Origin: Ghiorsea bivora | GTDB taxonomy: Bacteria; Pseudomonadota; Zetaproteobacteria; Mariprofundales; Mariprofundaceae | DNA length: 64,000 bases | Assembly (NCBI RefSeq): GCF_000744415.1 | Contig: NZ_JQLW01000009.1 | Location: 62,001 to 126,000, forward strand | Direction of reading: 5' to 3' | Part shown: positions 4,672 to 38,078 of the stretch, piece after piece | How positions within the stretch are numbered: the first letter of the stretch is position 1 | Layout of the letters: each line of letters begins with the position of its first letter | Notes under the pieces: model-generated | The model's database searches: none | Seen by the model: the letters and a program-made list of their open reading frames with translations, nothing else | Told to the model about the DNA's origin: nothing | Program-made: the position numbers and the translations under genes

Positions 4672-7600
4672 ATGACGCAAATGCCGAAAAAGCAAGGATT
4701 ATACAACGCACAACACGAGCATGACGCATGTGGTGTTGGTTTTGTTGCCCACATTAAAAACCAAAAAAGTCATGATATTGTTGAAAAAGGCTTAGAAATC
4801 CTGCTCCGTTTAACCCATAGGGGTGCCGCAGGCGCAGACCCTAGAGAAGGTGATGGCGCAGGCATACTCATTCAAATTCCTGATGATTTTTTCCAAGCCG
4901 TTGCCCCTGATTCGGATATTACATTACCTGCCACAGGTGAATATGGCGTAGGTATGATTTTCTTGCCACAAGATGAAACACACCGTGCAACTTGCGAAAA
5001 AATCATTGAAGATACCATCATCGCTGAAGGTCAAACCGTTTTAGGTTGGCGGGATGTGCCTGTTGATCCTATCCATGCTGATTTACCCGAAAGTGTATTG
5101 GCATGTGAACCCGTCTCGCGTCAAATTTTTGTAGGCAAAGGCAGTCAGTGTGCTGACCAACAAACGTTTGAACGCAAACTTTTTGTGATTCGTAAAATCT
5201 TTGAAAATCAAATTGCTGATAAAGCGTTTGATGATAAAGCCAAATTTTATGTGAATTCTTTATCCTCCCGCACTATTGTGTATAAAGGTATGTTTTTATC
5301 GCATCAAGTGGGTGCATATTTTACCGACTTATCCGATGCTCGCATGAAATCTGCCTTGGCATTGGTACATCAACGCTTCTCCACCAATACTTTCCCATCT
5401 TGGGAGCTTGCCCATCCCTTCCGCATGGTGGCACACAATGGTGAAATCAATACCGTACGTGGTAATATCAACTGGATGAATGCCCGTCGTCATTCTATGA
5501 AATCTAAATATTTGGGTGATGATTTGGATAAGGTTTGGCCTTTGATTCCTGAAAATCAATCCGATACTGCATGTTTTGATAATGCGCTTGAGCTTTTGGT
5601 TATGGGTGGTTATTCACTCACCCACGCTGCCATGCTGCTGATTCCTGAAGCTTGGTCTGGCAACAACTTAATGGATGAAAAACGCAAAGCGTTTTATGAA
5701 CATCATGCAGCATTGATGGAGCCTTGGGATGGCCCTGCTGCCGTTGCATTTACCGATGGTATTCAAATTGGCGCAACATTAGACAGAAACGGACTTCGCC
5801 CTGCCCGTTATTTGATTACGGATGATGATTTGGTGGTGATGGCATCCGAAATGGGAGTTTTAGATATTCCTGAAGAAAAAATCATCAAAAAATGGCGTTT
5901 ACAACCCGGTAAAATGTTCCTTATCGACTTGGAAGAAGGCTGTATTATTGATGATTCAGATATCAAAGATGCCCTAGCACTTGAACGCGACTACAAAAAA
6001 ATCTTGGCTGAAACCCAAATTCAAATTGAAGACTTAAATGTGGATGTTGAGGTCAAACAACCCCAACATGATGACTTATTAAATAAACAACAAGCCTTTG
6101 GTTATACCAAAGAAAACCTCAAGTTTTTGATGGCACCCATGGCAATCACAGGCATGGAAGCCACAGGTTCTATGGGTAATGATACACCACATGCGGTATT
6201 GTCCAATCGTGCCAAACCATTGTACAACTATTTCCGCCAATTGTTTGCCCAAGTGACCAACCCACCCATTGACCCGATTCGTGAAGAAATGGTGATGAGT
6301 TTAACATCGTTTATTGGTCCCAACCCCAACTTGCTTGGTTTGGACGATGAAGAACCAAGCTTACGTTTGGAAGTACATCAACCGATTTTGACCAACCAAG
6401 ACTTGGAAAAAATCCGTAACATCCATCAAGCCACCCAAGGTAAATTCCGTACATTAACCTTGTCCATGTGTTACCCCGCTGATTCAGGTGCTGCTGGTAT
6501 GGGTGTTGCCATTGAAAGTTTATGTAAACAAGCTGAACGCGCTGTATTGGATAAGTTTAACATCATCATCTTATCTGACCGCGATATGGATGAACAACAT
6601 ATTCCCATCCCTGCATTGTTGGCCACATCAGCAGTACACCAGCATTTGATAAGCAAAGGTTTGCGTGTGGAAACAGGACTTGTGCTTGAAACAGGTTCTG
6701 CCCGTGAAATTCAACATTTCGCAACCCTTGCAGGTTTTGGAGCAGAAGCCGTTAACCCATATTTAGCCTTTGAAACATTGATTGATATGCATAACGACGG
6801 GCATTTGCCTAGTGATATTGCTGTCTCAGATATTGAACCACGTTTTATCAAGGCTGTAGGCAAAGGTTTATACAAAGTCATGTCCAAAATGGGTATTTCT
6901 ACATACCAATCGTATTGTGGCGCACAAATTTTTGAAGCCTTTGGTTTATCTTCGGAATTTGTGGATAAATACTTTAAAGGTACAGCCACCCAAATTGAAG
7001 GTGTAGGCCTTGATGAAATTGCAAAGGAAGCCGTGATGCGTCATCAGTTGGCGTATGGCAACTCCATGATTCACAAAAAAGCATTGGATGTGGGTGGTGA
7101 ATACGAATGGCGTGTACGTGGCGAACAACATGCACTTACCCCTGAAACCATTGCCAAACTGCAACATGCCGTGCGTACCAATAATTATGCATTGTACAAA
7201 GAGTTTGCAGATATGATTAACAACCAAAAAGGTCGCTTAATTACTTTGCGTGGTTTGTTTAAGTTCAACAAAGGCAATAGCATTCCTTTGAGTGAAGTTG
7301 AACCAGCAACCAATATTGTCAAACGTTTTGCCACAGGTGCGATGTCCTTTGGTTCGATTTCACATGAAGCACACAGCACACTGGCGATTGCCATGAACCG
7401 TTTGGGTGGTAAATCCAACACGGGGGAAGGTGGTGAAGAAGTTGAACGTTTCACACCATTGCCCAATGGTGATTCTATGCGTTCAGCCATTAAACAAGTT
7501 GCATCCGGTCGTTTTGGTGTAACCGCTGAGTATTTAGCAAACGCTGATCAAATCCAAATCAAAATGGCACAGGGCGCAAAACCTGGTGAAGGTGGTCAAT

Positions 7601-17838: not shown

Positions 17839-17915
17839 GCACCCTTAGCTCAGTTGGATAGAGCACGAGCCTCCGAAGCTCGGGGCCAGTGGTTCGAATC
17901 CACTAGGGTGCACCA
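17839..17915 (+). tRNA. tRNA-Arg (anticodon CCG)
   Basis: A 77-nt tRNA including encoded CCA. The acceptor stem GCACCCT pairs with AGGGTGC, the D arm is TAGCTCAGTTGGATAGAGCA, the anticodon arm CGAGC-CTCCGAA-GCTCG gives CCG (CGG codons), and the T arm contains GGTTCGAATCC. Accessory genes begin directly on its 3' side, a usual place for integration. Confidence 0.96.
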
Positions 17916-18091: not shown

Positions 18092-18337
18092 TCAACCTTC
18101 AAAAGCAAAAGGATTTAAAATTTGCCTTCTCCAAAGACTAGTTCGCTCAACCTCACTTAAGCCAGCTTCATCACAAACTTGCAACCAATGATCTTCAATA
18201 ATTTCTCTTTGCCTTGCAATCAATTGATTTGCATCATCCTGAGAAAGCAAGAAATGGTGTGATGCCGCAACACAACAAGAAAGCTTAGGTAACCGGTAAT
18301 CCACCCATAAGTGTCTGCATTTATAAGTAGAAAACCT
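18092..18337 (-). pseudogene. hipA-like toxin kinase, C-terminal remnant
   Basis: About 80 codons open between stops, ending IEDHWLQVCDEAGLSEVERT followed by LWRRQILNPFAFEG. This is the characteristic last helix segment of HipA-family kinases, which phosphorylate glutamyl-tRNA synthetase. The catalytic core and the HipB antitoxin are missing and no ribosome-binding site is visible, so it is a dead fragment. It lies between tRNA-Arg and the fic gene. Confidence 0.6.
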
Positions 18338-19537
18338 TTATGGATGTCTACTTTCTGAGGGTATCCCACTTAACCGTTTAGTGCTTTTTTGTTCCCTTAG
18401 AAACTTGTTCTTTTCGGTTTCAAACTCTTCACCTAAATTTAGCCAGTATCGCACGCCTCTACCTTTGCCTGTTTTGGTAAACGCACCAAGCTTTTCAAGT
18501 GCTTGAATATCTCGGATAGCTGTCCGTTCAATTGCTCCTGTCATTTTCATATACTTCTTCACACTCATGCCACCCACAAAGCCATCCATGCCCGCTGCAA
18601 CCATCCTCGATAGGACTTTGGCTTGCCTTTCATTGGTTTGCTGTTGAACGTTGTCAAAGAACCGTGTTTTATTCACTGTAAATCGCACAAGCTTTTGTGC
18701 GTGATTAACTGCTTGTAGAACAGTTTTAGAAAAAAAAGACATCCATAAATCAATCGTAAGTTCTTTATTATTCTGCTCTAATTGTTTGTAGTATTCCTTT
18801 CTGTTCTTCTCAATCGCATGCGACAAGGCAACCAATGCAGGTCTACCAATAGACTGCGCTAATGCCTTTTCACTTAATGCCCTACCAATTCGACCATTAC
18901 CATCCTCAAAAGGATGAATAGAAACAAAGTAAATATGCGCAATGCTTGCGCGAATCAGCGGTGAAATGGGGTTTGTACCTTGGGGTGACGAATCATTGTA
19001 CCACGCAATAAAAGCATCCATTTCCTTTGGAACACTAACTGCAGGTGGTGCTTCAAAATGAACTTTGTAATGACCTTCATAGCCTGACACAACCTGCATA
19101 GGCTCTTTACTGGTTCGATATTTGCCAATATCTTGGATTCTCCATGACCCTGCAATAATATTCGATTGCCAGTTAAACATCATTTCATGGCTTAGGGGCT
19201 GGTCAAAAGTCTCATAGTTATCCACCATCAGTGCAGCAATGCCTTTTTCTTTATCGTTGGCTCTATGATCACTATATTGAGGAGCAAACCCAAGTTGACG
19301 TAACAATGATGAGCTTACACTATCACGGTCTAGGATTTCACCTTCAATCTTTGAGCTTTTCAAAGCCTCTTCGCTCATAAGGTCAATCGTGAATTTCCTA
19401 CCCTCTTCTTCATTAATAATTGCCGTAGCACCCACCAACTTGGAAGATTCAACCAAAAAAACGCGCTCGAATTCATCAAGAGCTTTGCCAGAGTATATAA
19501 AATCAGGCCAGTTTTTTTGTTGCCAATTCCACTTCAT
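18338..19537 (-). CDS. Fic-family adenylyltransferase with inhibitory motif and C-terminal winged helix
   Basis: A 399-residue Fic protein predicted to transfer AMP or a related group to a target protein. It starts MKWNWQQKNWPDFIYSG, the DUF4172 N-terminal domain. An inhibitory alpha-helix motif, SSKIEGE, lies near residues 78-84. The catalytic motif HPFEDGNGRIGR is complete (His, Phe, Asp, Asn, both Arg; about 204-215). The C-terminus (about 300-390) looks like a winged helix (MSVKKYMKMTGAIERTAIRD), so the protein may regulate itself. I chose 19537 rather than the in-frame start 39 nt upstream because it matches family N-termini and leaves the whole TGTCAGT array upstream. Confidence 0.88.
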   Translation of the reverse strand: MKWNWQQKNWPDFIYSGKALDEFERVFLVESSKLVGATAIINEEEGRKFTIDLMSEEALKSSKIEGEILDRDSVSSSLLRQLGFAPQYSDHRANDKEKGIAALMVDNYETFDQPLSHEMMFNWQSNIIAGSWRIQDIGKYRTSKEPMQVVSGYEGHYKVHFEAPPAVSVPKEMDAFIAWYNDSSPQGTNPISPLIRASIAHIYFVSIHPFEDGNGRIGRALSEKALAQSIGRPALVALSHAIEKNRKEYYKQLEQNNKELTIDLWMSFFSKTVLQAVNHAQKLVRFTVNKTRFFDNVQQQTNERQAKVLSRMVAAGMDGFVGGMSVKKYMKMTGAIERTAIRDIQALEKLGAFTKTGKGRGVRYWLNLGEEFETEKNKFLREQKSTKRLSGIPSESRHP

Positions 19538-19557
19538 AAATGAAACAGTATATGGGA

Positions 19558-19630
19558 TGTCAGTAAAAGCAATCAAAATACTGACATTTTATGGCGAAAT
19601 ATTGTCAGTCTAAAAAGTATTTCACTGACA
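19558..19630. promoter_or_regulatory. Four alternating TGTCAGT sites upstream of fic
   Basis: TGTCAGT occurs at 19558-19564 and 19603-19609, and its complement ACTGACA at 19580-19586 and 19624-19630. Start-to-start distances are 22, 23 and 21 bp, about two helical turns, with strictly alternating orientation. The array fills the fic promoter region and is a plausible operator for the winged-helix tail of Fic. Confidence 0.5.
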
Positions 19631-19756
19631 TTGCCCTTGTTTTAAAAGTAATTTGCCTTTTATTGATTGAGTGTGCCAATCAATAAGCATCCAAAATTAA
19701 CCTGCTCCTTTAATACAATAGGCGGGGAAGCAGGACAAGAAATCAAGGATATCAGA

Positions 19757-19808
19757 AATCAAGGGGTCAGCCAGCTTGATAGAAATCAAGGGGTCAGCCA
19801 GCTTGATT
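19757..19808 (+). repeat. REP-like palindrome, two tandem copies (A1, A2)
   Basis: Copies at 19757-19780 (24 bp) and 19784-19808 (25 bp), 27 bp apart, of a sequence that begins AATCAAG and ends CTTGATT around a loop with GGGTCAG. A degraded third start (AATCAAGGAT) lies at 19741. This is the intergenic space between fic and vapC; nothing else is visible in it. Confidence 0.8.
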
Positions 19809-19882
19809 GTGGGACAGCCATTTCTCACCACCTCTATACTCCATGATAAAACGTGCAACTATAATGCAGTAGGGGCTTCGCC

Positions 19883-20287
19883 TTATTCATCCACCCAATT
19901 CTCAAGGCTGAGCTTGGGTACACGAGAAAATTCTTTCACATTATTACTCACCAAAGTGGCGTTCAGGGCAAGTGCATGAGCCGCAATAAACAAATCATTG
20001 CCACCAATCATCTGACCCGAACGCTCAAGTTCCACACGAATATCACCATAAATTCCTGTTGCATGTTCTTCAAACGGCATCACTTCCAAAGGCATAAGAA
20101 ACATTTCTAACGCAGCCAGATTGTGTTCTTTATATCGGCTCTTCGATATGCCATACATCAACTCAGCCAATACGATTGATGAGAGCAAAACATCACCAGG
20201 CTGCAATTTTTCGAATCGTGCACGCACCTGAAACGGATTATGTTTAATCAAATAAACACAAATATTGGTATCCAACATATACATCAT
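19883..20287 (-). CDS. vapC: VapC-type PIN-domain ribonuclease toxin
   Basis: A 134-residue PIN-domain toxin. The acidic active-site residues are visible: Asp in MLDTNICVYLIK (about residue 6), Glu in VLAELMYGI (about 42), and Asp in GGNDLFIAAHA (about 98). VapC toxins cut initiator tRNA or rRNA. The start ATG directly abuts the vapB stop, so the pair is translationally coupled. The unit is framed by REP-like palindromes on both sides. Confidence 0.9.
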   Translation of the reverse strand: MMYMLDTNICVYLIKHNPFQVRARFEKLQPGDVLLSSIVLAELMYGISKSRYKEHNLAALEMFLMPLEVMPFEEHATGIYGDIRVELERSGQMIGGNDLFIAAHALALNATLVSNNVKEFSRVPKLSLENWVDE

Positions 20288-20533
20288 TCAACCTTTATCG
20301 AAGCAGGAAAAATCACGTTGCTGAGGCAAAGGCTGTTGCCGCCCATCCGACATGAAATCTTCAGAAAATTGATTGAGCGACTCAAACAAGGTGTCCCAAC
20401 TGTGTTGAATAGGTAGCAACACCACTGCATTCCCCACTTTATGAACAAAAACTTCATCACCTTCAAACCGAAATTCCTTCGGTAGTCGGACAGCTTGACT
20501 GCGTCCATTTTGAAAAATCTTAGCTGTATTCAT
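20288..20533 (-). CDS. vapB: VapB-type antitoxin
   Basis: An 81-residue antitoxin. The N-terminal MNTAKIFQNGRSQAVRLPKE followed by FRF is the SpoVT/AbrB swapped-hairpin DNA-binding domain of VapB. The C-terminal tail is the toxin-binding segment. I chose the ATG at 20533 because AGGAG lies 9-10 nt upstream and the protein then starts as family members do. It should repress its own promoter together with VapC. Confidence 0.9.
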   Translation of the reverse strand: MNTAKIFQNGRSQAVRLPKEFRFEGDEVFVHKVGNAVVLLPIQHSWDTLFESLNQFSEDFMSDGRQQPLPQQRDFSCFDKG

Positions 20534-20601
20534 CACACATCTCCTGATATATATCAAAAAATATATACCACAGCTTCACACTGTCAACTAAGAAATCAGG
20601 A

Positions 20602-20626
20602 AATCAAGGGGTCAGCCAGCTTGATT
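20602..20626 (+). repeat. REP-like palindrome, copy B
   Basis: A full 25-bp copy (AATCAAG, loop with GGGTCAG, CTTGATT), one base away from the stop codon of the truncated parE downstream. Confidence 0.8.
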
Positions 20627-20627
20627 G

Positions 20628-20870
20628 CTATTTACCTTGTCCGAAGGTCGTACCAATCAAATGTTTTTTAAGCTGCACCAAAATATCCATGCGTTCATGT
20701 AATACAACGATGATAACAGGCTGCCTATCATCTGGATGAATGTAGAAAATATAATGATGCTCGCAGCGACAAACTTTGGCTTGAGGATAAACCTCAGAAA
20801 ACGGGTATGAATGCACGACACCGTCCACAATCTCATGGAAATCGGGGTAGAACCCCAACGTGTTGTATAC
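20628..20870 (-). pseudogene. parE/relE-family toxin, N-terminally truncated
   Basis: About 76 codons that match only the second half of RelE/ParE toxins: YPDFHEIVDGVVHSYPF, then CRCEHHYIFYIHPDD and VIIVVLHERMDILVQLKKHL. The N-terminal helices are absent; five codons upstream of the TTG there is a stop. Its end lies one base from REP copy B, and a 42-codon reading frame sits upstream. Most likely a decayed toxin. Confidence 0.55.
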
Positions 20871-20999
20871 TCACTTCAGAACTTCCTTATAAAACTGCAT
20901 TATTCCCTTCCTAGCAACCTGCCAGTCATATTTATCCACATCAGTAATGGATATTTCTTTCTTAATATCTATCAATGATTTACTTTGATCCGACCCCAT
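20871..20999 (-). CDS. Small 42-residue reading frame upstream of broken parE
   Basis: An ATG at 20999 opens 42 codons (MGSDQSKSLIDIKKEISITD, then VDKYDWQVARKGIMQFYKEV) ending at 20871, next to the parE fragment. The charged, helical sequence and the position suggest the partner antitoxin or its remnant. The ribosome-binding site is weak and I do not recognise the family. Confidence 0.3.
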   Translation of the reverse strand: MGSDQSKSLIDIKKEISITDVDKYDWQVARKGIMQFYKEVLK

Positions 21000-21000
21000 A

Positions 21001-21351
21001 CTACCCCACTACGCCAATTTTCCTCAAATCCTCACAAAGACGAACAGGCATATCGGATTTTTCATGCAATATCGTCATAACTCCTATTGCACCTATAGAC
21101 AATTCACGAAAAAATAGGTAATGATGCTCATATTGACTGAAATATACCTTCAAATCCAAGTCTTGAGGAACGACAAGGTTTGCAGGAAGAGCTCGCCAAA
21201 TCTCTTTTTCTTTTGATAGTAATTGCAGGTGATGGTGTAAGCCTATGATATATTTCTCAGCTTGTTTTTCTCCCCACGCACCGCAACTGTAGCGCCATAT
21301 ATCATCCTGTGATTTATCAGCAGGTGGAAAAAACAGATAGGTGGACACCAC
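21001..21351 (-). CDS. RelE/ParE-family toxin
   Basis: A 116-residue toxin of the ParE/RelE fold. The N-terminal helices (PPADKSQDDIWRYSCGAWGE) and the strand block (YEHHYLFFREL, IGVMTILHEKSDMPVRL) fit ParE-like gyrase or ribosome-dependent toxins. The GTG start overlaps the last base of the antitoxin stop, and the antitoxin comes first, as usual. Family is clear; the target is not. Confidence 0.8.
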   Translation of the reverse strand: MVSTYLFFPPADKSQDDIWRYSCGAWGEKQAEKYIIGLHHHLQLLSKEKEIWRALPANLVVPQDLDLKVYFSQYEHHYLFFRELSIGAIGVMTILHEKSDMPVRLCEDLRKIGVVG

Positions 21352-21596
21352 TATTTATTACGCTGAATGACATCTTCCGCCGTAACCGCAAGGAATGCAC
21401 CCTCATCTGCCCTCAAAGCAGGCTCTAACTCCCTTTTCAACCACGCCCACGACTCGCTTCTACTTTTTAAATCACTTCGAATCAGAAAACGTATATATTC
21501 GCTAGCATTGTCATACAGTCCATGTTCCCCAATTTGCTGTTGCAGATGCGCTTGTAACTCACCTTTAATTCTTACATTGATATTTGTGGCAGTCAT
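21351..21596 (-). CDS. ParD-like ribbon-helix-helix antitoxin
   Basis: An 81-residue antitoxin. TNINVRIKGELQAHLQQQI is followed by YDNASEYIRFLIRSDL, the classic CopG/ParD ribbon-helix-helix arrangement; the C-terminal half binds toxin. The ATG at 21596 follows a strong GGAGG with 9-nt spacing. It is coupled by overlap to the toxin gene downstream. Confidence 0.85.
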   Translation of the reverse strand: MTATNINVRIKGELQAHLQQQIGEHGLYDNASEYIRFLIRSDLKSRSESWAWLKRELEPALRADEGAFLAVTAEDVIQRNK

Positions 21597-21723
21597 TTCC
21601 AATCACCTCCTGCTTCAAGTTTACTCGACCATAACGCATGTAAAGATAATGTTCAATATATTTTACTGCGCCTGAAAGGTAAATCCGTGAACAATGACAT
21701 CATCAAGCAATACTTTCTTACAG

Positions 21724-21748
21724 AATCAAGGGGTCAGCCAGCTTGATT
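21724..21748 (+). repeat. REP-like palindrome, copy C (overlaps RAYT 3' end)
   Basis: A full 25-bp copy. Its right part supplies the last codons and the TGA stop of the RAYT gene on the other strand. With copy D it forms an inverted pair around the transposase gene. Confidence 0.85.
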
Positions 21749-22453
21749 TTGGATTACCCTATAGTTTTTACTTTTCCTGTCTCCCCCATGCGCAATCAGC
21801 TTGGTAGGTCTAGAAATTAGCCTGCCAAGCTTAACATGTGTTTCACTACTACCATAAACCTCTCCCCGCATTGTAGCTTCTGTGATTTGCAGATCTTGTT
21901 CAGGGCTATTTTGCACAGCTAGAATATCCTTATAGCTTTTAGCCCGCTGCCTAGGGTTTGCTCCCAAATTTTGATATAACTGATGCTCTGTAATTAAGTC
22001 ATCCTTCTCACCCAGTGCATGATGCCGATAACTTGACCATAGATAGGCATCAGGCTTTTCAGCCATATGTGCTTTAACGGGGTTCATTTCAATATATCGA
22101 TAAAGCGCAAAAAGATAGGTCTCACTATCAATCAAGCACGACTTAAATCGCCCCTCCCAAATGGTTCCCGTTCTATGGCGTGAAGCATTAAAATATCGAA
22201 CATATCGGTTCGCCATTGTCTGCATAAATGTACTAAGCTTATTTTTATCTGGCGGCGTAATAAGGAGATGCAAATGATTCGTCATAATGACATAGGCATG
22301 CAGCCGACAACCCGTTTTAACCAAACCCTCTGCAATATCCTCTTTGATCCGATGCATATCTTTTTTAGATTCAAAAATATCCTGCTTATTGTTTCCACGA
22401 TGCATAATGTGCAACGGATGATTTGGGATAACAATACGAGGTAACCTAGCCAT
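21734..22453 (-). CDS. REP-associated tyrosine transposase (RAYT, Y1/IS200-like)
   Basis: A 239-residue single-strand transposase-like protein. The HUH motif is NHLHLLI (about residues 60-66) and the catalytic Tyr lies in ALYRYIEMNPVKA (about 115-127). The family block RTGTIWEGRFKS and the C-terminal basic tail are typical of RAYTs. RAYTs cut and move short palindromes rather than themselves. Two nearly identical palindromes in inverted orientation flank the gene (21724-21748 and 22482-22506) and more copies lie within 2.7 kb, so this locus is probably the source of the local REP family. The start ATG at 22453 is preferred over the in-frame TTG. Confidence 0.92.
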   Translation of the reverse strand: MARLPRIVIPNHPLHIMHRGNNKQDIFESKKDMHRIKEDIAEGLVKTGCRLHAYVIMTNHLHLLITPPDKNKLSTFMQTMANRYVRYFNASRHRTGTIWEGRFKSCLIDSETYLFALYRYIEMNPVKAHMAEKPDAYLWSSYRHHALGEKDDLITEHQLYQNLGANPRQRAKSYKDILAVQNSPEQDLQITEATMRGEVYGSSETHVKLGRLISRPTKLIAHGGDRKSKNYRVIQNQAG

Positions 22454-22481
22454 GATCAAAATATACCAAACGCTTGCCGTA

Positions 22482-22506
22482 AATCAAGTTGGCTGACCCC
22501 TTGATT
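22482..22506 (-). repeat. REP-like palindrome, copy D (upstream of RAYT)
   Basis: A 25-bp copy in the opposite orientation to copies A-C, differing from copy C by one base. It lies 28 bp upstream of the RAYT start and 30 bp downstream of the polysaccharide locus's last gene. Confidence 0.85.
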
Positions 22507-22536
22507 TGCCTTGATTTGATTTTTATTTTTTAACCT

Positions 22537-24186
22537 TTACAACACAACCAACATCAGCAAAAGAATAACCAACAAACCAACTAAAAGCAGGTGATTTCGG
22601 TCAGGATGTTTACGAATCACAATTTTCATAGCGATCAATAATGGTACAGCTTGTAAACACGCTGCCTTAGCGGCAGCCATCATTTCTTCTGAAACACCCA
22701 ACACAGGTAAAATAGTAAACGGAACAAACCATGAAACACACAGTAAAATAATTTCCAAACCCGAGGTCATCAAAACCTCATTGTGCCCTTTAAATATAAT
22801 TTTAAACATGGACCAAATGAATAAAACAACCACAAAGGCAACGACATACCATGAAAATGAAAAACCTTGATAAGAGGAAATATTCCACACAAATAAAATT
22901 GTAATACCTGTTAAGTAAAACAAACCATAAACAATATTTAAACGTTGGGTATGCTCTTTCCAAGGGTAAGCCAATAAAAGCAATACAAATACACCCAAAA
23001 GCAAGTTGTGTGTAGCTTCAGGGACTGCCACAACAAAAGGCAACGGAAAAAGCAACCCGATAAGCACAGCAAACCTTAATCCTTTAATACTTTTGCCCAT
23101 CATGGTCGCAAGGTCTATACGCTCCCCTTGCCGCTTATAGGCAAATGAATATTTGTGCACATTACAACCCCATAACTCGCATAGGCTCAGCACACCATAC
23201 AGAATCACGCACACACCTAAACCTATGACCAATTGTAACCATTCTGGGTACTCATGTAAGACCAACGCCAGCAAACCAAAAAAGAAAGCCAAAAGATAAA
23301 TCATGGTCACAACAGCAGAATGCGAAAATCCCACAGCCAATAGCCGATGATGCAAATGTGTTCTGTCTGCCGACACAGGGCTTTTGCCTTGCAAAATACG
23401 CCGCGACATCACCAATAAGGTATCTGAAACTGGAAGCGCCAGAATAATAGCTATCGATATTGGTGGCACACTAACTGCACCCTCAAAACCAACCAGAAAC
23501 ATAAGCGCTGATGCCATAAAAAAACCCAGCGTTAAACTTCCCGTGTCGCCCATAAAAAGTTTGGCTGGGTAGGTGTTAAATTTAAGAAATCCAAAGATAG
23601 CCCCCGTAAATGCCACAAGCACAAACAATAAAAGCCAGTTTTGACTTTCAAGCGCAAAGGTACCCATAAAAAATGCTGCGATAATCGTAATGCCTGCCGC
23701 AAGCCCATCTAAACCATCGGATAAATTAAAGGCATTAATAAGACCCACCATACAAAAGAGGCTAGCCAAAAAAGCAATGCTTGGAGGAAAATCTATCGTA
23801 CCAAAACCCAGCACATTGCCTAATGTATTCAAACTTAAACCTGAAAGCTCTAAAAATACTATGCTGGCTAAAATCTGACCCAACATCTTTTTGGCAGGGC
23901 TAATGCCATGCAGATCATCCAATACACCGGTAGAAACAATAATCACCACGCCCAACAAGAAACCAATCAAAATTTGGTTTAACGCTACAAATAATGATAA
24001 TGAAACAATAGCAGCTACGGCCATACCCAGCCCGCCCATACGTGGCATAATGCAATCATGCACGCTTCTATCCACAGGCGAATCCATGGCACCTATCTTT
24101 TGCGCTAAAGTAATCGTTGCAGGTGTTAAAAATAACGACAAAATCAATGCCGTAAAAAACAAAAGTCCTAAATCTTCAAACGCCAC
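22537..24186 (-). CDS. WecA/MraY-like undecaprenyl-phosphate sugar-1-phosphate transferase, extended
   Basis: A polytopic inner-membrane protein that starts lipid-linked sugar synthesis by adding a sugar phosphate, GlcNAc-1-P in WecA, to undecaprenyl phosphate. Family motifs: VLDDLHG (about 90), NAFNLSDGLDGLAAG (about 153-167), KLFMGDTGSLTLGF (about 209-222) and HLHHRLLAVGFS (about 281-292). WecA proteins are usually 340-370 residues; this one has 549, because about 200 residues with six or more membrane helices follow the catalytic part. The extra part does not match anything I recognise. It is the last gene of the polysaccharide locus, with REP copy D downstream. Confidence 0.88.
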   Translation of the reverse strand: MAFEDLGLLFFTALILSLFLTPATITLAQKIGAMDSPVDRSVHDCIMPRMGGLGMAVAAIVSLSLFVALNQILIGFLLGVVIIVSTGVLDDLHGISPAKKMLGQILASIVFLELSGLSLNTLGNVLGFGTIDFPPSIAFLASLFCMVGLINAFNLSDGLDGLAAGITIIAAFFMGTFALESQNWLLLFVLVAFTGAIFGFLKFNTYPAKLFMGDTGSLTLGFFMASALMFLVGFEGAVSVPPISIAIILALPVSDTLLVMSRRILQGKSPVSADRTHLHHRLLAVGFSHSAVVTMIYLLAFFFGLLALVLHEYPEWLQLVIGLGVCVILYGVLSLCELWGCNVHKYSFAYKRQGERIDLATMMGKSIKGLRFAVLIGLLFPLPFVVAVPEATHNLLLGVFVLLLLAYPWKEHTQRLNIVYGLFYLTGITILFVWNISSYQGFSFSWYVVAFVVVLFIWSMFKIIFKGHNEVLMTSGLEIILLCVSWFVPFTILPVLGVSEEMMAAAKAACLQAVPLLIAMKIVIRKHPDRNHLLLVGLLVILLLMLVVL

Positions 24187-24240
24187 GATATCCCCTTAAA
24201 TCTCCCCTATCTATACTTTTACTGGACCACTACAATCAGC

Positions 24241-24399
24241 TTAAAGTATTCGTTGGGCGACAATCTCCCATGTATAGGCATTATTCGCAATGTTCGAAAT
24301 ATCAGCACCAACTTTTGTCAACGATAAGCTCTGTATATCTTGAAGAAAAATTAAGGCATCAGCTTGATTAATACCCTCTTTGGCCAGTATTTTTCCCTA
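24241..24399 (-). pseudogene. C-terminal fragment of a glycosyltransferase, cut at a REP element
   Basis: An open frame ends with FLQDIQSLSLTKVGADISNI and NAYTWEIVAQRIL before a stop at 24241, the style of family 4 glycosyltransferase C-termini. It has no start, and its 5' side stops exactly at REP copy E (24400-24424). The rest of the gene appears deleted, so the locus probably once encoded one more glycosyltransferase. Confidence 0.55.
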
Positions 24400-24424
24400 A
24401 ATCAAGCTGGCTGACCCTTTGATT
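24400..24424 (-). repeat. REP-like palindrome, copy E
   Basis: A 25-bp copy with one loop change (CCTTT in place of CCCTT), opposite in orientation to copies A-C. It separates the glycosyltransferase remnant from the WecG gene. Confidence 0.8.
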
Positions 24425-24450: not shown

Positions 24451-25173
24451 TCACAATTTTCCAGAGAGCAGCAAAAGCATAAAGGGAATAAGTAGCAGCT
24501 GCCTTTTGACTCTTTTTGGACTTTGAAATAGCCGATAAAGCCATTCAATATGATTTCTGCATGCCCATGCAGGGGCACGTAGCACTTTACCAGTAAAAAC
24601 ATCATAAGTTCCACCCACACCCATATAAAAAGCATTTGGATGTAATTCGCGACACTTGGAAATAAACTTTTCTTGTCTTGGTGAGCCCATGGCAACAGTG
24701 ATGATATTAGGTTTAAGGTGTGTTATTTTATCAAGAAGATTTTTTTCTGATTGAAAAAAACCATCTTCATATCCCACAATATTAACCTTATATAACCTTT
24801 TAAGCTTGTCAACAGTTGACTCTAAAACAAACTGTTCTGCACCAACGAGAAATACCGAACTAGCACTTTCACCTGCCCGTTTCATGACTTGCTCCCAAAG
24901 CTCGCAACCAGCAATTTTCACTGACACAGCACCCTTTCTACGCAGCGCCCAAACAACACCTGTACCATCAGCATAACGAAGCGTTGCCAGTTCCAATACC
25001 GCTTTCACTTCAGGGTGCGAGCGAGAGCTCATCACTTTCTCAGCATTCATTGCCAAGGCAAATGCTGACCTAACAGATCCATCAGTATTAAAAATTGAGC
25101 CCAGTGCATCATCCATACTTTGAAAGGGCGTAACCTCTAGCCCTGCTATCTTAACTCTTTTTTGACATACCAC
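24451..25173 (-). CDS. WecG/TagA/CpsF-family glycosyltransferase
   Basis: A 240-residue peripheral-membrane glycosyltransferase of GT26. It would add ManNAc or ManNAcA to the lipid-linked GlcNAc. Family features: ALAMNAEKVMSSR, LRYADGTGVVWALR (about 67-80), VAMGSPRQEKFISKCR (about 160-175) and the C-terminal RAPAWACRNHIEWLYRL with a basic-hydrophobic tail that anchors it to the membrane. With wecB and wecC in the locus the predicted donor is UDP-ManNAcA, as for enterobacterial WecG. It lies 3 nt downstream of the carbamoyltransferase. Confidence 0.88.
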   Translation of the reverse strand: MVCQKRVKIAGLEVTPFQSMDDALGSIFNTDGSVRSAFALAMNAEKVMSSRSHPEVKAVLELATLRYADGTGVVWALRRKGAVSVKIAGCELWEQVMKRAGESASSVFLVGAEQFVLESTVDKLKRLYKVNIVGYEDGFFQSEKNLLDKITHLKPNIITVAMGSPRQEKFISKCRELHPNAFYMGVGGTYDVFTGKVLRAPAWACRNHIEWLYRLFQSPKRVKRQLLLIPFMLLLLSGKL

Positions 25174-34602: not shown

Positions 34603-34663
34603 CCTTCCATAAATACCATCTTCACCTAAATATTCCCCCACTTGCACTTCAATCATTTGTAAA
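34603..34663 (-). pseudogene. Duplicated fragment of the manC 3' end
   Basis: About 60 bp closely matches the last codons of manC at 36681-36759, including a run of 30 identical bases around TTCCCCCACTTGCACTTCAA, with roughly 17 bp deleted inside. It is not expressed as a protein. Together with the hepT fragment at 34748 it shows that this interval was made by duplication of the manC-mntA-hepT segment. Confidence 0.75.
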
Positions 34664-34664
34664 T

Positions 34665-34689
34665 ACAAAAGGGGTCAGAGCCCTTTTGT
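34665..34689 (+). repeat. GGGTCAG-core palindrome, variant F
   Basis: A 25-bp palindrome whose arms are ACAAAAGGG and CCCTTTTGT with the centre GTCAGAG. It has the same length and shared AAGGGGTCAG core as copies A-E, but different arms. It sits directly between two duplicated gene fragments. Confidence 0.65.
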
Positions 34690-34747
34690 TGTATCTCGGT
34701 TTTATTCATGGCTCAGCACCCTTCCATCGATGCCCTTCCATATTTAC

Positions 34748-34806
34748 AACACATACTAACGATCATTATTTTTCTGCAAAGCAGCATAAGCGACCTTGGC
34801 AAACTG
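34748..34806 (-). repeat. 59-bp perfect direct repeat (hepT 3' end duplicate)
   Basis: Identical over 59 bp to 35839-35897, which contains the last 17 codons of hepT. The copy here is an orphan. The interval 34564-34946 otherwise holds only the manC fragment, the two GGGTCAG elements and AT-rich filler. Confidence 0.85.
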
Positions 34807-34954
34807 AAAGCATTAGGGTCAGGTCTTGTTTCGCGGATATTATGCTTAAACCACCCATAAATTTTTCTTCTTTTCCGTGTTTAACCCTCAATACAGCTAA
34901 ATTGAATGCAGCAGCTATTTTATTGTCTGAAACCGCCAGTACATCATTAAACAT
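34766..34954 (-). CDS. Small reading frame downstream of HEPN protein, doubtful
   Basis: An ATG at 34954 overlaps the preceding HEPN stop and opens 62 codons (MFNDVLAVSDNKIAAAFNLA ... LRVKHGKEEKFMGG). The first 40 codons look protein-like; the frame then runs through a GGGTCAG repeat and the hepT fragment. It may be a third module gene truncated by the repeat. Family not recognised. Confidence 0.25.
   Translation of the reverse strand: MFNDVLAVSDNKIAAAFNLAVLRVKHGKEEKFMGGLSIISAKQDLTLMLSVCQGRLCCFAEK
34807..34847 (+). repeat. GGGTCAG-core element, variant G
   Basis: AAGCAT and ATGCTT arms enclose TTAGGGTCAGGTCTTGTTTC. It shares AAAGCA, TAGGG, TCAGG, CTTG and TTCGCG blocks with variant H at 35757, so the two belong to one subfamily. 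Both flank the same HEPN/MNT module. Confidence 0.55.
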
Positions 34955-35408
34955 ATCTGCTCGCAAAAGCTTCCACCGCACGAAGTGTAGCAAGCAACTC
35001 ACCTGCAAGAGAGAAAGCCTTATTTAAAATCGCAGCCTGCATGTCTGGGTCATCAGGGTATTCATGTGAAAACGCATTGCGCATTTCTCGCAACATCAGC
35101 CACTGCTCTGCCGAAGGAATAGCACCAATTTTCTCCAAACGATTCAGCTTATCAACAAAAGCATCCAGCCCACCAGGTTCTTTTGCCAAATCCAATACTG
35201 TAGGAAACAGCTTTGCCCCCATCACATCCTGAAGTTTCGCAAAACGCACAGTAAACTGATCTAGAATTGCCATCTCAACATCTGTCAACTGCCCCAAAGT
35301 ATCTGCTGAAAAAGGTAAATGCTTTTCCATCGCCTGCATTGCCCAAACCAACCTATCAGCATGACGCTGGCAGATACTTAATGTTTCAGTATATACAGTA
35401 GACTTCAC
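34947..35408 (-). CDS. HEPN-fold toxin-like protein (HepT-like)
   Basis: A 153-residue helical protein with the RNase-type HEPN motif R-X4-H in LREMRNAFSHEYPDDP (about 108-123). It pairs with the nucleotidyltransferase immediately upstream, whose stop overlaps its GTG start. By analogy with HepT/MntA, it would be an RNase held inactive by AMP transfer to a Tyr near the HEPN motif; a Tyr lies in HEYPDDP. The sequence is unlike the second HepT at 35847, so it is an independent module and not a copy. Confidence 0.75.
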   Translation of the reverse strand: MKSTVYTETLSICQRHADRLVWAMQAMEKHLPFSADTLGQLTDVEMAILDQFTVRFAKLQDVMGAKLFPTVLDLAKEPGGLDAFVDKLNRLEKIGAIPSAEQWLMLREMRNAFSHEYPDDPDMQAAILNKAFSLAGELLATLRAVEAFASRYV

Positions 35409-35713
35409 AACAACATTTCCCCTGTTTCTTTCGCAATCTGATATATGGGTAAACCCGCATCATGCTTACGCCTATTCAACACAACATCAATCTTTTGTTC
35501 GCCCAACACCCTGTGCATTTCAAGCAGAAACTTTAACTTGGCATCAACAAGTGCAGTAGCATCCTGTATCTTCGGCTCAATATACAAATCAATATCGCCA
35601 CCCCTTTGTCCATCATCAACCCGAGAACCAAAAAGCCACACATGCGAACCTTCCCCGAAAAACATAGGCACCTTTTGCTGAATCTGCGAAACTTGAAATG
35701 CAGTTAAGCGCAT
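35405..35713 (-). CDS. MNT-type minimal nucleotidyltransferase (antitoxin)
   Basis: A 102-residue nucleotidyltransferase-fold protein with VWLFGSRVDDGQRGGDIDLY (about 25-44), giving the GSR and D-X-D residues of the MNT catalytic centre. It precedes the HEPN gene with a GTGA overlap. MntA-type proteins neutralise HepT by adding AMP to it. The start ATG has no clear ribosome-binding site. Confidence 0.8.
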   Translation of the reverse strand: MRLTAFQVSQIQQKVPMFFGEGSHVWLFGSRVDDGQRGGDIDLYIEPKIQDATALVDAKLKFLLEMHRVLGEQKIDVVLNRRKHDAGLPIYQIAKETGEMLL

Positions 35714-35756
35714 AAAAACACCACATTCATCATTTCAAGTACCAAGCCACAGTTTT

Positions 35757-35790
35757 AAAGCACTAGGGGTCAGGGCTTGATTCGCGCTTT
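35757..35790 (+). repeat. GGGTCAG-core element, variant H
   Basis: AAAGC and GCTTT arms enclose TAGGGGTCAGGGCTTGATTC. It lies just upstream of the first MNT gene and just downstream of the second HepT, at a module boundary. It is similar to variant G. Confidence 0.55.
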
Positions 35791-35838
35791 TAATCACAAT
35801 TTGATTCAGCTTATCTATTAATGATTTTCTATAGCTAA

Positions 35839-35897
35839 AACACATACTAACGATCATTATTTTTCTGCAAAGCAGCATAAGCGACCTTGGCAAACTG
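35839..35897 (-). repeat. 59-bp perfect direct repeat (in hepT 3' end)
   Basis: The native copy of the repeat found at 34748-34806, covering the last codons and stop of hepT. The two copies lie 1,091 bp apart and bracket the other HEPN/MNT module. Confidence 0.85.
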
Positions 35898-36278
35898 TGT
35901 GAAGTCACCCAAATGGTATTGGCAAATAGCATACATCACCTGCCAATCTATTGCCTCATATTGATGCACGGCAACATTCCGAAAGCCAACAGATTTCCGC
36001 ATACGCTCAGCAAGCTTTTCATCCAAATGACCATGTTGTGCCAACGCATCAAACATGCCACCCATGGTATTCGGTGCTGATATTTCTTCCAAACTTGCAA
36101 TCCAATGCGCTGCAATATCAACACTTAACTGCACTGCTCGCGTCAAATTCAATGTGATAATATCTTGTAGGTCTACATCATTCATCAACTGAGCAACATC
36201 CTGTGGACATTTCTCCTCAATTCTCAATAAACACTTGCGTAAAGACTCTAGCTTTTCTTCAACAACTAACCTATCCAT
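35847..36278 (-). CDS. hepT: HepT-family HEPN toxin (DUF86)
   Basis: A 143-residue HepT. The HEPN motif with its modifiable Tyr is RNVAVHQYEAIDW (about 101-113), matching the RX4HXY signature of HepT RNases that MntA inactivates by oligo-AMPylation. The preceding helix block LTRAVQLSVDIAAHWIA is typical of DUF86. It overlaps mntA by 13 nt. The complete pair seems functional. Confidence 0.88.
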   Translation of the reverse strand: MDRLVVEEKLESLRKCLLRIEEKCPQDVAQLMNDVDLQDIITLNLTRAVQLSVDIAAHWIASLEEISAPNTMGGMFDALAQHGHLDEKLAERMRKSVGFRNVAVHQYEAIDWQVMYAICQYHLGDFTQFAKVAYAALQKNNDR

Positions 36279-36670
36279 GCAGCCCTCCGCGCATCCAAAA
36301 TACGCTGGCGATATGGCATAAAATCAGCTTGTTCAAAAACATGCTGGCTAAGTAAATTGCCAAACATCGTCGCATTGCCAACAAGCTGCTTTCCATGCAA
36401 CACGATTTGCCCCAACAAAGGCTCTCCAACCACCTTAAGATCAACCAAATCTACAGCGCGGCCCATCACAAGCGCAATATCTTCAACCATACGTATCTTT
36501 TCATCGACATCCAACACATGATCCAAAGCAACTGCCAAGTCAACATCACTCTCTGCATGTGCTTGCCCACGAGCCAATGAGCCAAAAAGAATAGCTTGCT
36601 GAATTTCGGGATGTTGTTGCAAATATTGCAGCAATGGCTTGTATGTTTGCTGTGCAACATGCTGCGTCAT
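36266..36670 (-). CDS. mntA: MntA-type nucleotidyltransferase antitoxin
   Basis: A 134-residue MNT protein with AILFGSLARGQAHAESDVDL (about 27-46), the GSX10DXD centre that transfers AMP to HepT. I chose the ATG at 36670, which follows GGGAGG with suitable spacing and begins 4 nt after the manC stop. Longer starts would lie inside manC. The arrangement places the toxin-antitoxin pair in the polysaccharide transcription unit. Confidence 0.85.
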   Translation of the reverse strand: MTQHVAQQTYKPLLQYLQQHPEIQQAILFGSLARGQAHAESDVDLAVALDHVLDVDEKIRMVEDIALVMGRAVDLVDLKVVGEPLLGQIVLHGKQLVGNATMFGNLLSQHVFEQADFMPYRQRILDARRAAWIG

Positions 36671-36674
36671 ATGC

Positions 36675-38078
36675 TCATTCCCTCCCATAAATATCATCAA
36701 ATCGCTCAATATCATCTTCACCCAAATATTCCCCCACTTGCACTTCAATCATTTGCAAAGGTATTTTTCCTTTATTGGCAAGCCTGTGTTTTTCACCAAT
36801 GGGGATATAGGTACTTTCATTTTTTGCTACGGTAAACACATCATCATTACGCGTGACGGTTGCGGTACCAGAGACAACAATCCAATGCTCAGAGCGATGC
36901 TGATGGCGCTGCAGACTTAAACTTGCACCAGGCTCCACCACAATACGCTTCATTTTATAACCTTCAGCATTTTCCAATACCGTATAACTGCCCCAAGGGC
37001 GTTTGACGGTTACATGCTCAAGAAGCTCTGTGCCGCTTGTATGTTTAAGCGCTGCCACCACTTCTCTCACCCGCTGACTTTCACCTTTGGGGCATAATAA
37101 AATGGCATCGGGTGTTTCCACAGCAATGATGTCTCTAAGCCCAACTGCTGCAATCAAACGCGATTCACTGCGCAACAAACTATGCTCACAATCAATCGCA
37201 ATCACATGCCCGCTCACAGCATTGTTTGCCTCATCCTTATCCGCAATATCAAACACTGCATCCCAGCTGCCCACATCTGACCAACCCATGGATACAGGCA
37301 CCATCACCACATTATCCGATGTCTCTAACACGGCATAATCAATTGAAATCGAAGGCATATCCTTAAATTGATGCCGCACCACTTCTTGCCAAGCTTCACC
37401 CTCAACCCAAGCTTGTTGCATGGCTTGCAATACAACATCAATCTTTGGCTGATACTTTTGAAGCTCAGCTAAAATCACCGATGCTTTCCAGACAAACATG
37501 CCTGAATTCCAAAAATAACCGCCCTCATCCAAGAATGTTTTAGCTGTTTTCAAATCAGGTTTTTCCGTGAACCGTTTCACTGGCAAAGCTGTGTCTGCAT
37601 GCGACATTTCAGCTTGGATATAGCCAAAACCTGTATCTGGATGCTCTGGCACAATGCCAAAAGTGACCAACTTACCCTGCTCTGCAGCGGCAATAGCTTG
37701 ATCTAAAGCTTGGTGAAAGGCTGGGATATCTTGAATAATATGATCTGCTGGCAATACCAACATGACGGGATCATCACCATCTTTTTGCAACAAAGCCGCA
37801 GCTAGGGCTATGGCAGGTGCAGTATCTCTTGCACAAGGCTCAAGAATGGTATGCAAATGATCCAATTCTGAGAATGCTTCACCCGTGGCATGAGCTTCAT
37901 TGGTCACCACCCATACATCACCTTGCTTAATTTTAGGCGACAACCGTGAAATGGTGGCTGCAAGCAATGAGTCTTCACCTGTCAGCTTTAAAAACTGCTT
38001 GGGTAATTGCTGCCTAGACATGGGCCACAAACGTGTACCTGAACCACCTGCAAGCACTACAGCTTGGTATTTATGCAC
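36675..38078 (-). CDS. manC: Mannose-1-phosphate guanylyltransferase / mannose-6-phosphate isomerase
   Basis: A 467-residue bifunctional type II enzyme that makes GDP-mannose. The pyrophosphorylase signature VLAGGSGTRLWPMSRQQLPK lies at the N-terminus, FTEKPDLKTA in the middle, and the C-terminal cupin isomerase domain has RPWGSYTVLENAEGYKMKRI and QRHQHRSEHWIVVSGTA (about 393-409). It overlaps the wzz gene by 8 nt. GDP-mannose is a precursor for the polysaccharide; the phosphomannomutase is not in the window. Confidence 0.96.
   Translation of the reverse strand: MHKYQAVVLAGGSGTRLWPMSRQQLPKQFLKLTGEDSLLAATISRLSPKIKQGDVWVVTNEAHATGEAFSELDHLHTILEPCARDTAPAIALAAALLQKDGDDPVMLVLPADHIIQDIPAFHQALDQAIAAAEQGKLVTFGIVPEHPDTGFGYIQAEMSHADTALPVKRFTEKPDLKTAKTFLDEGGYFWNSGMFVWKASVILAELQKYQPKIDVVLQAMQQAWVEGEAWQEVVRHQFKDMPSISIDYAVLETSDNVVMVPVSMGWSDVGSWDAVFDIADKDEANNAVSGHVIAIDCEHSLLRSESRLIAAVGLRDIIAVETPDAILLCPKGESQRVREVVAALKHTSGTELLEHVTVKRPWGSYTVLENAEGYKMKRIVVEPGASLSLQRHQHRSEHWIVVSGTATVTRNDDVFTVAKNESTYIPIGEKHRLANKGKIPLQMIEVQVGEYLGEDDIERFDDIYGRE

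Follow-up and report, generated by a model that had tools for sequence, protein, structure and literature searches.

The window analysed here is a stretch of 64,000 nucleotides of the Ghiorsea bivora genome (contig NZ_JQLW01000009.1, positions 62,001 to 126,000; all positions below are counted within the window). It contains a patch of accessory genes in which six copies of a 23-nt palindrome accompany a gene for a Y1 (HUH) tyrosine transposase and several toxin-antitoxin genes. The edge of the patch is marked by a tRNA-Arg(CCG) gene (17839–17915, plus strand), an accessory hot spot. All the protein-coding genes that follow are on the minus strand: a C-terminal remnant of hipA (18098–18295; 73% identity over 66 residues to HipA of the related genome G005), a Fic/DOC protein (18338–19576; profile match), the VapC toxin of the PIN family (19883–20287; profile match) and its VapB antitoxin (20288–20557 for the open reading frame (ORF) as listed; profile match), a parE-like pseudogene (20628–20999), a ParE-family toxin (21001–21351; profile match) with a ParD-like antitoxin (21351–21602; below the NCBIfam cut-off), the transposase (21734–22459), a WecA/MraY-like glycosyltransferase family 4 (GT4) protein (22537–24186; profile match and homology to relatives), a putative C-terminal remnant of a group 1 glycosyltransferase (24250–24400) and a WecG/TagA/CpsF glycosyltransferase (24451–25173).

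The palindromes are located in the gaps between these genes, where the first-pass annotation had placed them: two copies in tandem between fic and vapC (19758–19780 and 19785–19807), one between vapB and the parE pseudogene (20603–20625) and one between parDE and the transposase (21725–21747), all on the plus strand, followed by two on the minus strand, between the transposase and the polysaccharide locus (22483–22505, 31 nt from the GT4 stop codon) and between the glycosyltransferase remnant and wecG (24401–24423). The broken parE and parDE are not separated by a copy, again as noted before. Each copy differs from the consensus ATCAAGGGGTCAGCCAGCTTGAT by at most one mismatch, and four of the six are exact; in the copy at 22483, an A replaces a G, a common variant in other genomes, and in the copy at 24401, a single base of the core is changed. 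No further copies were found in the window (chance expectation of 0 in 100 shuffles) or, allowing up to three mismatches, elsewhere in the 2.15 Mb genome, so that the entire genomic set is confined to 4.7 kb. A full copy is often preceded by a fragment of the 5′ part of the repeat (ATCAAGG or ATCAAGGGGTC), for example, at 19740–19757 in the window and at 5439–5488 of locus L198, a pattern that looks as if insertions stack.

The transposase matches the Pfam family Y1_Tnp (E-value 3e-13), with HLH and YxxxNP motifs recognizable by eye, and its gene is flanked by the copies at 21725 and 22483 in inverted order. The former extends into the 3′ end of the gene; because this overlap is seen in many homologs, it is normal anatomy. 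When segments of 300–2500 bp between repeats are compared (leaving aside three segments of 100–300 bp with transposase fragments), the repeats are convergent (+−) in 13 of the 15 segments that hold a transposase or a fragment of one (12 of 14 in the fetched loci plus the unit in the window). Each copy of the repeat is predicted by single-strand folding to form a hairpin with an internal loop. The core of the repeat, GGGGTCAG in five of the window copies and AGGGTCAG in the sixth (24401), is conserved in 141 of the 144 copies with full flanks across genomes and matches the published consensus GGGGWSAS, the motif of terminal inverted repeat (TIR)-associated tyrosine transposases, TIRYTs (Di Nocera et al. 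2013, PMC3733652; PMC6006769). Neither GTAG nor GTGG was found 5′ of the hairpin, where positions −4 to −1 are A/G-rich, and the score of the transposase against the NCBIfam profile REP_Tyr_transpos, 74.9 bits, is under the cut-off of 80. Given this core, the missing GTAG tag and the subthreshold score for a REP (repetitive extragenic palindromic sequence)-associated tyrosine transposase (RAYT), the best reading of the unit is a TIRtron, that is, a putative IS200/IS605-related Y1 (HUH) transposase gene between inverted GGGGTCAG-core hairpins, rather than a REPtron. The TIRtron is a known kind of element, and the repeat is not a classical REP: for what was initially described as a REP-like palindrome, ‘TIRtron terminal repeat' fits better.

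As described in PMC3733652, TIRtrons share with the window the Y1 (HUH) gene between inverted repeats with GGGGWSAS and without the GTAG tag, as well as small repeat families that occur as singles, dimers and clusters. They differ in the C-terminal helix-turn-helix (HTH) reported for most TIRYTs (PMC3733652, PMC6006769) and in that adjacency to toxin-antitoxin genes is not mentioned in the parts of these two papers that were covered. The REPtrons likewise resemble the unit in the window, with two inverted palindromes flanking the transposase and repeats piling up near the gene after transfer, an accumulation reported also in marine gammaproteobacteria (Nunvar 2010, PMC2817692). In contrast to the GTAG-REP REPtrons, the repeats in the window lack the GTAG/GTGG tag, are few and are not spread genome-wide, and the RAYT score is under the cut-off.

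A scan of genome contigs yielded 86 relatives of the transposase, of which 80 were kept; the best full-length ones, with about 59–67% identity, come from Methylophaga, Methyloprofundus, Cycloclasticus, Colwellia and others. The same repeat type is present in the fetched flanks of 24 of the 34 best loci, which represent many gammaproteobacteria; the other 10 have no copy of the type found in the window, several of these being cut by contig ends and one (L036) carrying another type. Twenty genomes from the 24 repeat-bearing loci contain 137 copies, 1–14 each (0 for a control pattern); these genomes were picked for having the repeat, blind to toxins, so that 24 of 34, and not 20 of 20, measures prevalence. 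Within the family to which Ghiorsea bivora belongs, the repeat is present in 3 of 74 genomes, compared with 52 of 74 for a transposase relative of some kind (E-value of 1e-10 or better), and many of the closer transposase relatives there have GGGGTCAG repeats whose arms differ in sequence. The plasmid relatives of the transposase (16 records) are all below 60% identity. Wide carriage by phages was rejected: among viral contigs, there is one with two exact repeats, near which no toxin pair was recognized by eye in the nearby ORFs, and one distant relative of the transposase.

Across genomes, the repeat family adjoins toxin-antitoxin modules much above chance. This association was measured in 23 repeat-bearing genomes (61.2 Mb, 148 repeats) by searches at an E-value of 0.001, a few of the matches being below the curated cut-off. 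Seventeen of the 191 toxin matches are no more than 1 kb from a repeat (10 of 86 ParE, 3 of 30 HigB and 4 of 75 PIN), compared with 0.65 expected from the sequence length covered (binomial P = 5e-19); by hand count, they are spread over 9 of the 23 genomes, the VapC of the window included. None of the controls is this close (0 of 149 tyrosine integrases and 0 of 91 rve transposases; 0 of 240 in total, Fisher P = 6e-7), although these controls are imperfect, with core recombinases among the integrases and many of the genomes fragmented. Beside other transposases of the family, no toxin family was found among the first 25 of 62 families (49 of 100 ORFs scanned). The association rests on the genome-wide family searches and not on Pfam tallies of repeat-side ORFs (58 + 121, with 110 control ORFs sampled from 243), which cover the first 25 families each and give no fair count. 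In the titles and abstract openings of publications on RAYT, REPIN and TIRYT and on toxin-antitoxin genes combined with palindromes, no report of toxin adjacency was found. The toxin adjacency is the new point.

The mere shared residence of toxins and repeats in accessory regions is a possible, although somewhat doubtful, explanation of this association. The patch itself is located at a tRNA hot spot, and toxin density is raised also at 1–5 kb from a repeat, to about 1.7 per 100 kb versus 0.31 genome-wide. Against this stands the steepness of the gradient: within 1 kb, the density reaches 8.2 per 100 kb, and 17 of the 27 toxin matches within 5 kb fall inside 1 kb compared with 7.1 expected (P = 7e-5 against the local shell). 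Moreover, the integrases and rve transposases, which are often accessory too, show no such proximity.

Eight toxin modules are bounded by repeats on both sides: VapBC and ParDE in the window, VapBC in G064, ParDE and HigBA in G107, CcdAB in G115, ParE with an HTH protein in G114 and HigBA in G101. Five of these modules have their repeats in ++ order, two in −+ and one in +−. Given that the transposase-holding segments are convergent in nearly all cases and the toxin modules in only one of eight, the latter do not look like transposase-type mobile units, and carriage of the toxins as cargo of such units was rejected. More broadly, of the 30 transposase-free segments of 300–2500 bp that separate adjacent repeats, 7 contain a toxin, alone or paired with an antitoxin; a further pair, CcdAB in locus L154, is in a segment with a transposase fragment and thus outside the 30. 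In Cycloclasticus (L148, 4352–4987), a ParDE pair is found between convergent repeats, the usual place of the transposase. A tentative and rather unlikely idea is that Y1 TIRYTs and their GGGGTCAG repeats are partners of toxin-antitoxin modules, which would be either integrase-free cassettes moved in trans or addiction anchors that hold the repeats in place.

Some rearrangements do end at the repeats. The glycosyltransferase remnant runs directly into the copy at 24401, and in a Methylophaga genome (G113; L309, 10020–10376), a duplicated 3′ fragment of lysS, about 333 bp long, starts beside a repeat. Homology between the window and G005 takes in GT4 and stops at the GT4 stop codon, 31 nt away from the repeat at 22483. 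In 40 fetched loci of 8–20 kb, mostly from Methylophaga, 26 homology chains gave 45 inner block ends. Three of these coincide with a repeat (at 0, 1 and 3 bp), all at a Methylophaga locus common to G111, G112 and G113, and the remaining 42 are more than 150 bp from any repeat. Random shifts of the repeats placed a mean of 0.41 ends within 5 bp, compared with the 3 observed (P = 0.033); within 50 bp, there is no excess (3 versus 1.4, P = 0.21). Thus, the repeats serve as rearrangement endpoints only occasionally and are not general assembly points of the patch. A second truncated gene had been thought to abut a repeat, namely, the parE pseudogene, whose own stop codon (20628–20630) is 2 nt from the copy at 20603. 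Its C-terminus, however, is as long as those of intact ParE homologs and the reading frame is interrupted by an internal TGA (20871–20873), so that this copy was rejected as the cause of the break.

The content of the tRNA-Arg site differs among related genomes. In G002 and G007, a gene resembling an FAD-monooxygenase (named by eye) directly follows the tRNA gene, and in G010, these two genes are separated by a HipBA pair. In G005 (L267, 5839–9518), which contains no copy of the repeat, a Fic gene and a HipBA pair are enclosed by tRNA-Arg copies, two plus a partial third. In G011, homology to the window extends up to 17820 and resumes at 36682, so that the whole patch is missing, with breakpoints 1.9 kb and 12 kb away from the nearest repeat. 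Relatives of vapBC and fic are present in G020 and G029, both without the repeat. The comparisons with G005 and G011 indicate that the tRNA-Arg site gains and loses modules without the repeats seen in the window. As in a tRNA-associated genomic island, accessory modules lie next to tRNA-Arg, and in G005 duplicated tRNA ends bracket them; unlike in such an island, there is no match to an integrase (PF00589) on the contig that contains the window, and the window has a single tRNA-Arg copy.

The combined evidence is best explained by a TIRtron residing in a tRNA-Arg accessory hot spot, with local seeding of single repeats, a few of which later served as rearrangement endpoints, and with most of the modules arriving by other routes; the probability of this reading is put at roughly 0.62. 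The TIRtron unit was probably acquired horizontally and would have landed beside the tRNA-Arg gene and the polysaccharide locus. Single repeats may then have been seeded into gaps close by, either through the transposase or when replication passed the hairpins. Such gaps tolerate insertions, which would be why the repeats look like module separators today. Horizontal arrival and local spread are suggested by the confinement of all six genomic copies to 4.7 kb and by the rarity of the repeat in the family (3 of 74 genomes) compared with the transposase-relative loci (24 of 34). Subsequently, some repeats would have become endpoints of deletions or rearrangements, with the junction at the glycosyltransferase remnant as a probable example, whereas most of the modules seem to have come by other routes, notably through the tRNA-Arg site, as observed in relatives.

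Several points weigh against this reading. No C-terminal HTH was detected in the transposase (Pfam at an E-value of 0.001 gave Y1_Tnp alone); TIRYTs correspond to subclass 2.1, or RAYT group 1, and subgroup 2.1.2 is termed heterogeneous for this domain (PMC6006769), so that the negative result limits the subclass label but not the TIRtron label. The glycosyltransferase remnant matches the glycosyltransferase of G005 weakly (36% over 42 residues, E-value 1.4), and its assignment is therefore mainly positional. The three repeat-side block ends amount to a single locus. For none of the repeats in the window was an empty site found, and insertion as single repeats is accordingly a proposal. Finally, the unit could conceivably be of vertical origin and have been lost in the rest of the genus.

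Two further alternatives assign an active role to the repeats or to the toxins. The first-pass annotation took the repeats for recombination or insertion points that assembled the patch, so that modules would come and go through recombination or transposition from repeat to repeat. The remnant end, the lysS fragment and the three Methylophaga block ends within 3 bp of repeats agree with this for individual events, as do the toxin genes in 7 of 30 transposase-free segments. As an account of the whole patch, it is unlikely: 42 of the 45 block ends lie off the repeats, the breaks in G011 and G005 are elsewhere, and only one of the eight repeat-bounded toxin modules has the convergent order of the transposase units. 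The weakest is the proposal that toxin-antitoxin modules anchor the TIRtron, with loss of the neighbourhood killing or handicapping the lineage and the surviving repeats found beside addiction modules, which would fit the tight enrichment within 1 kb and the controls without a hit but appears quite improbable, given that most toxin-side repeats have no intact transposase nearby and that the toxins may not all be active.

Other repeated sequences occur in and beyond the patch. In the gap between GT4 and the glycosyltransferase remnant, 25–27 nt of 24210–24236 are identical to 239818–239842 of contig C7 of genome G000 and to sites in G010; an rve transposase match lies about 220 bp away from the former site, and the stretch is possibly the end of an insertion sequence. 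At 34612–36759, where no TIRtron repeat is present, two pairs of small ORFs resemble HEPN-MNT modules by eye; they are flanked by copies of a 52-nt piece of the manC 3′ end (34612–34663 and 36708–36759, 94%), and an 84-nt repeat occurs among them at 34723 and 35814.

TIRYT-like transposases are widespread, subclass 2.1 being reported in 14.9% of strains (PMC6006769). A low-copy repeat family of distant bacteria that lies beside toxin-antitoxin genes offers a testable link between Y1 transposases and addiction modules, in a system small enough to watch both the seeding of repeats and the rearrangements that repeats cause.

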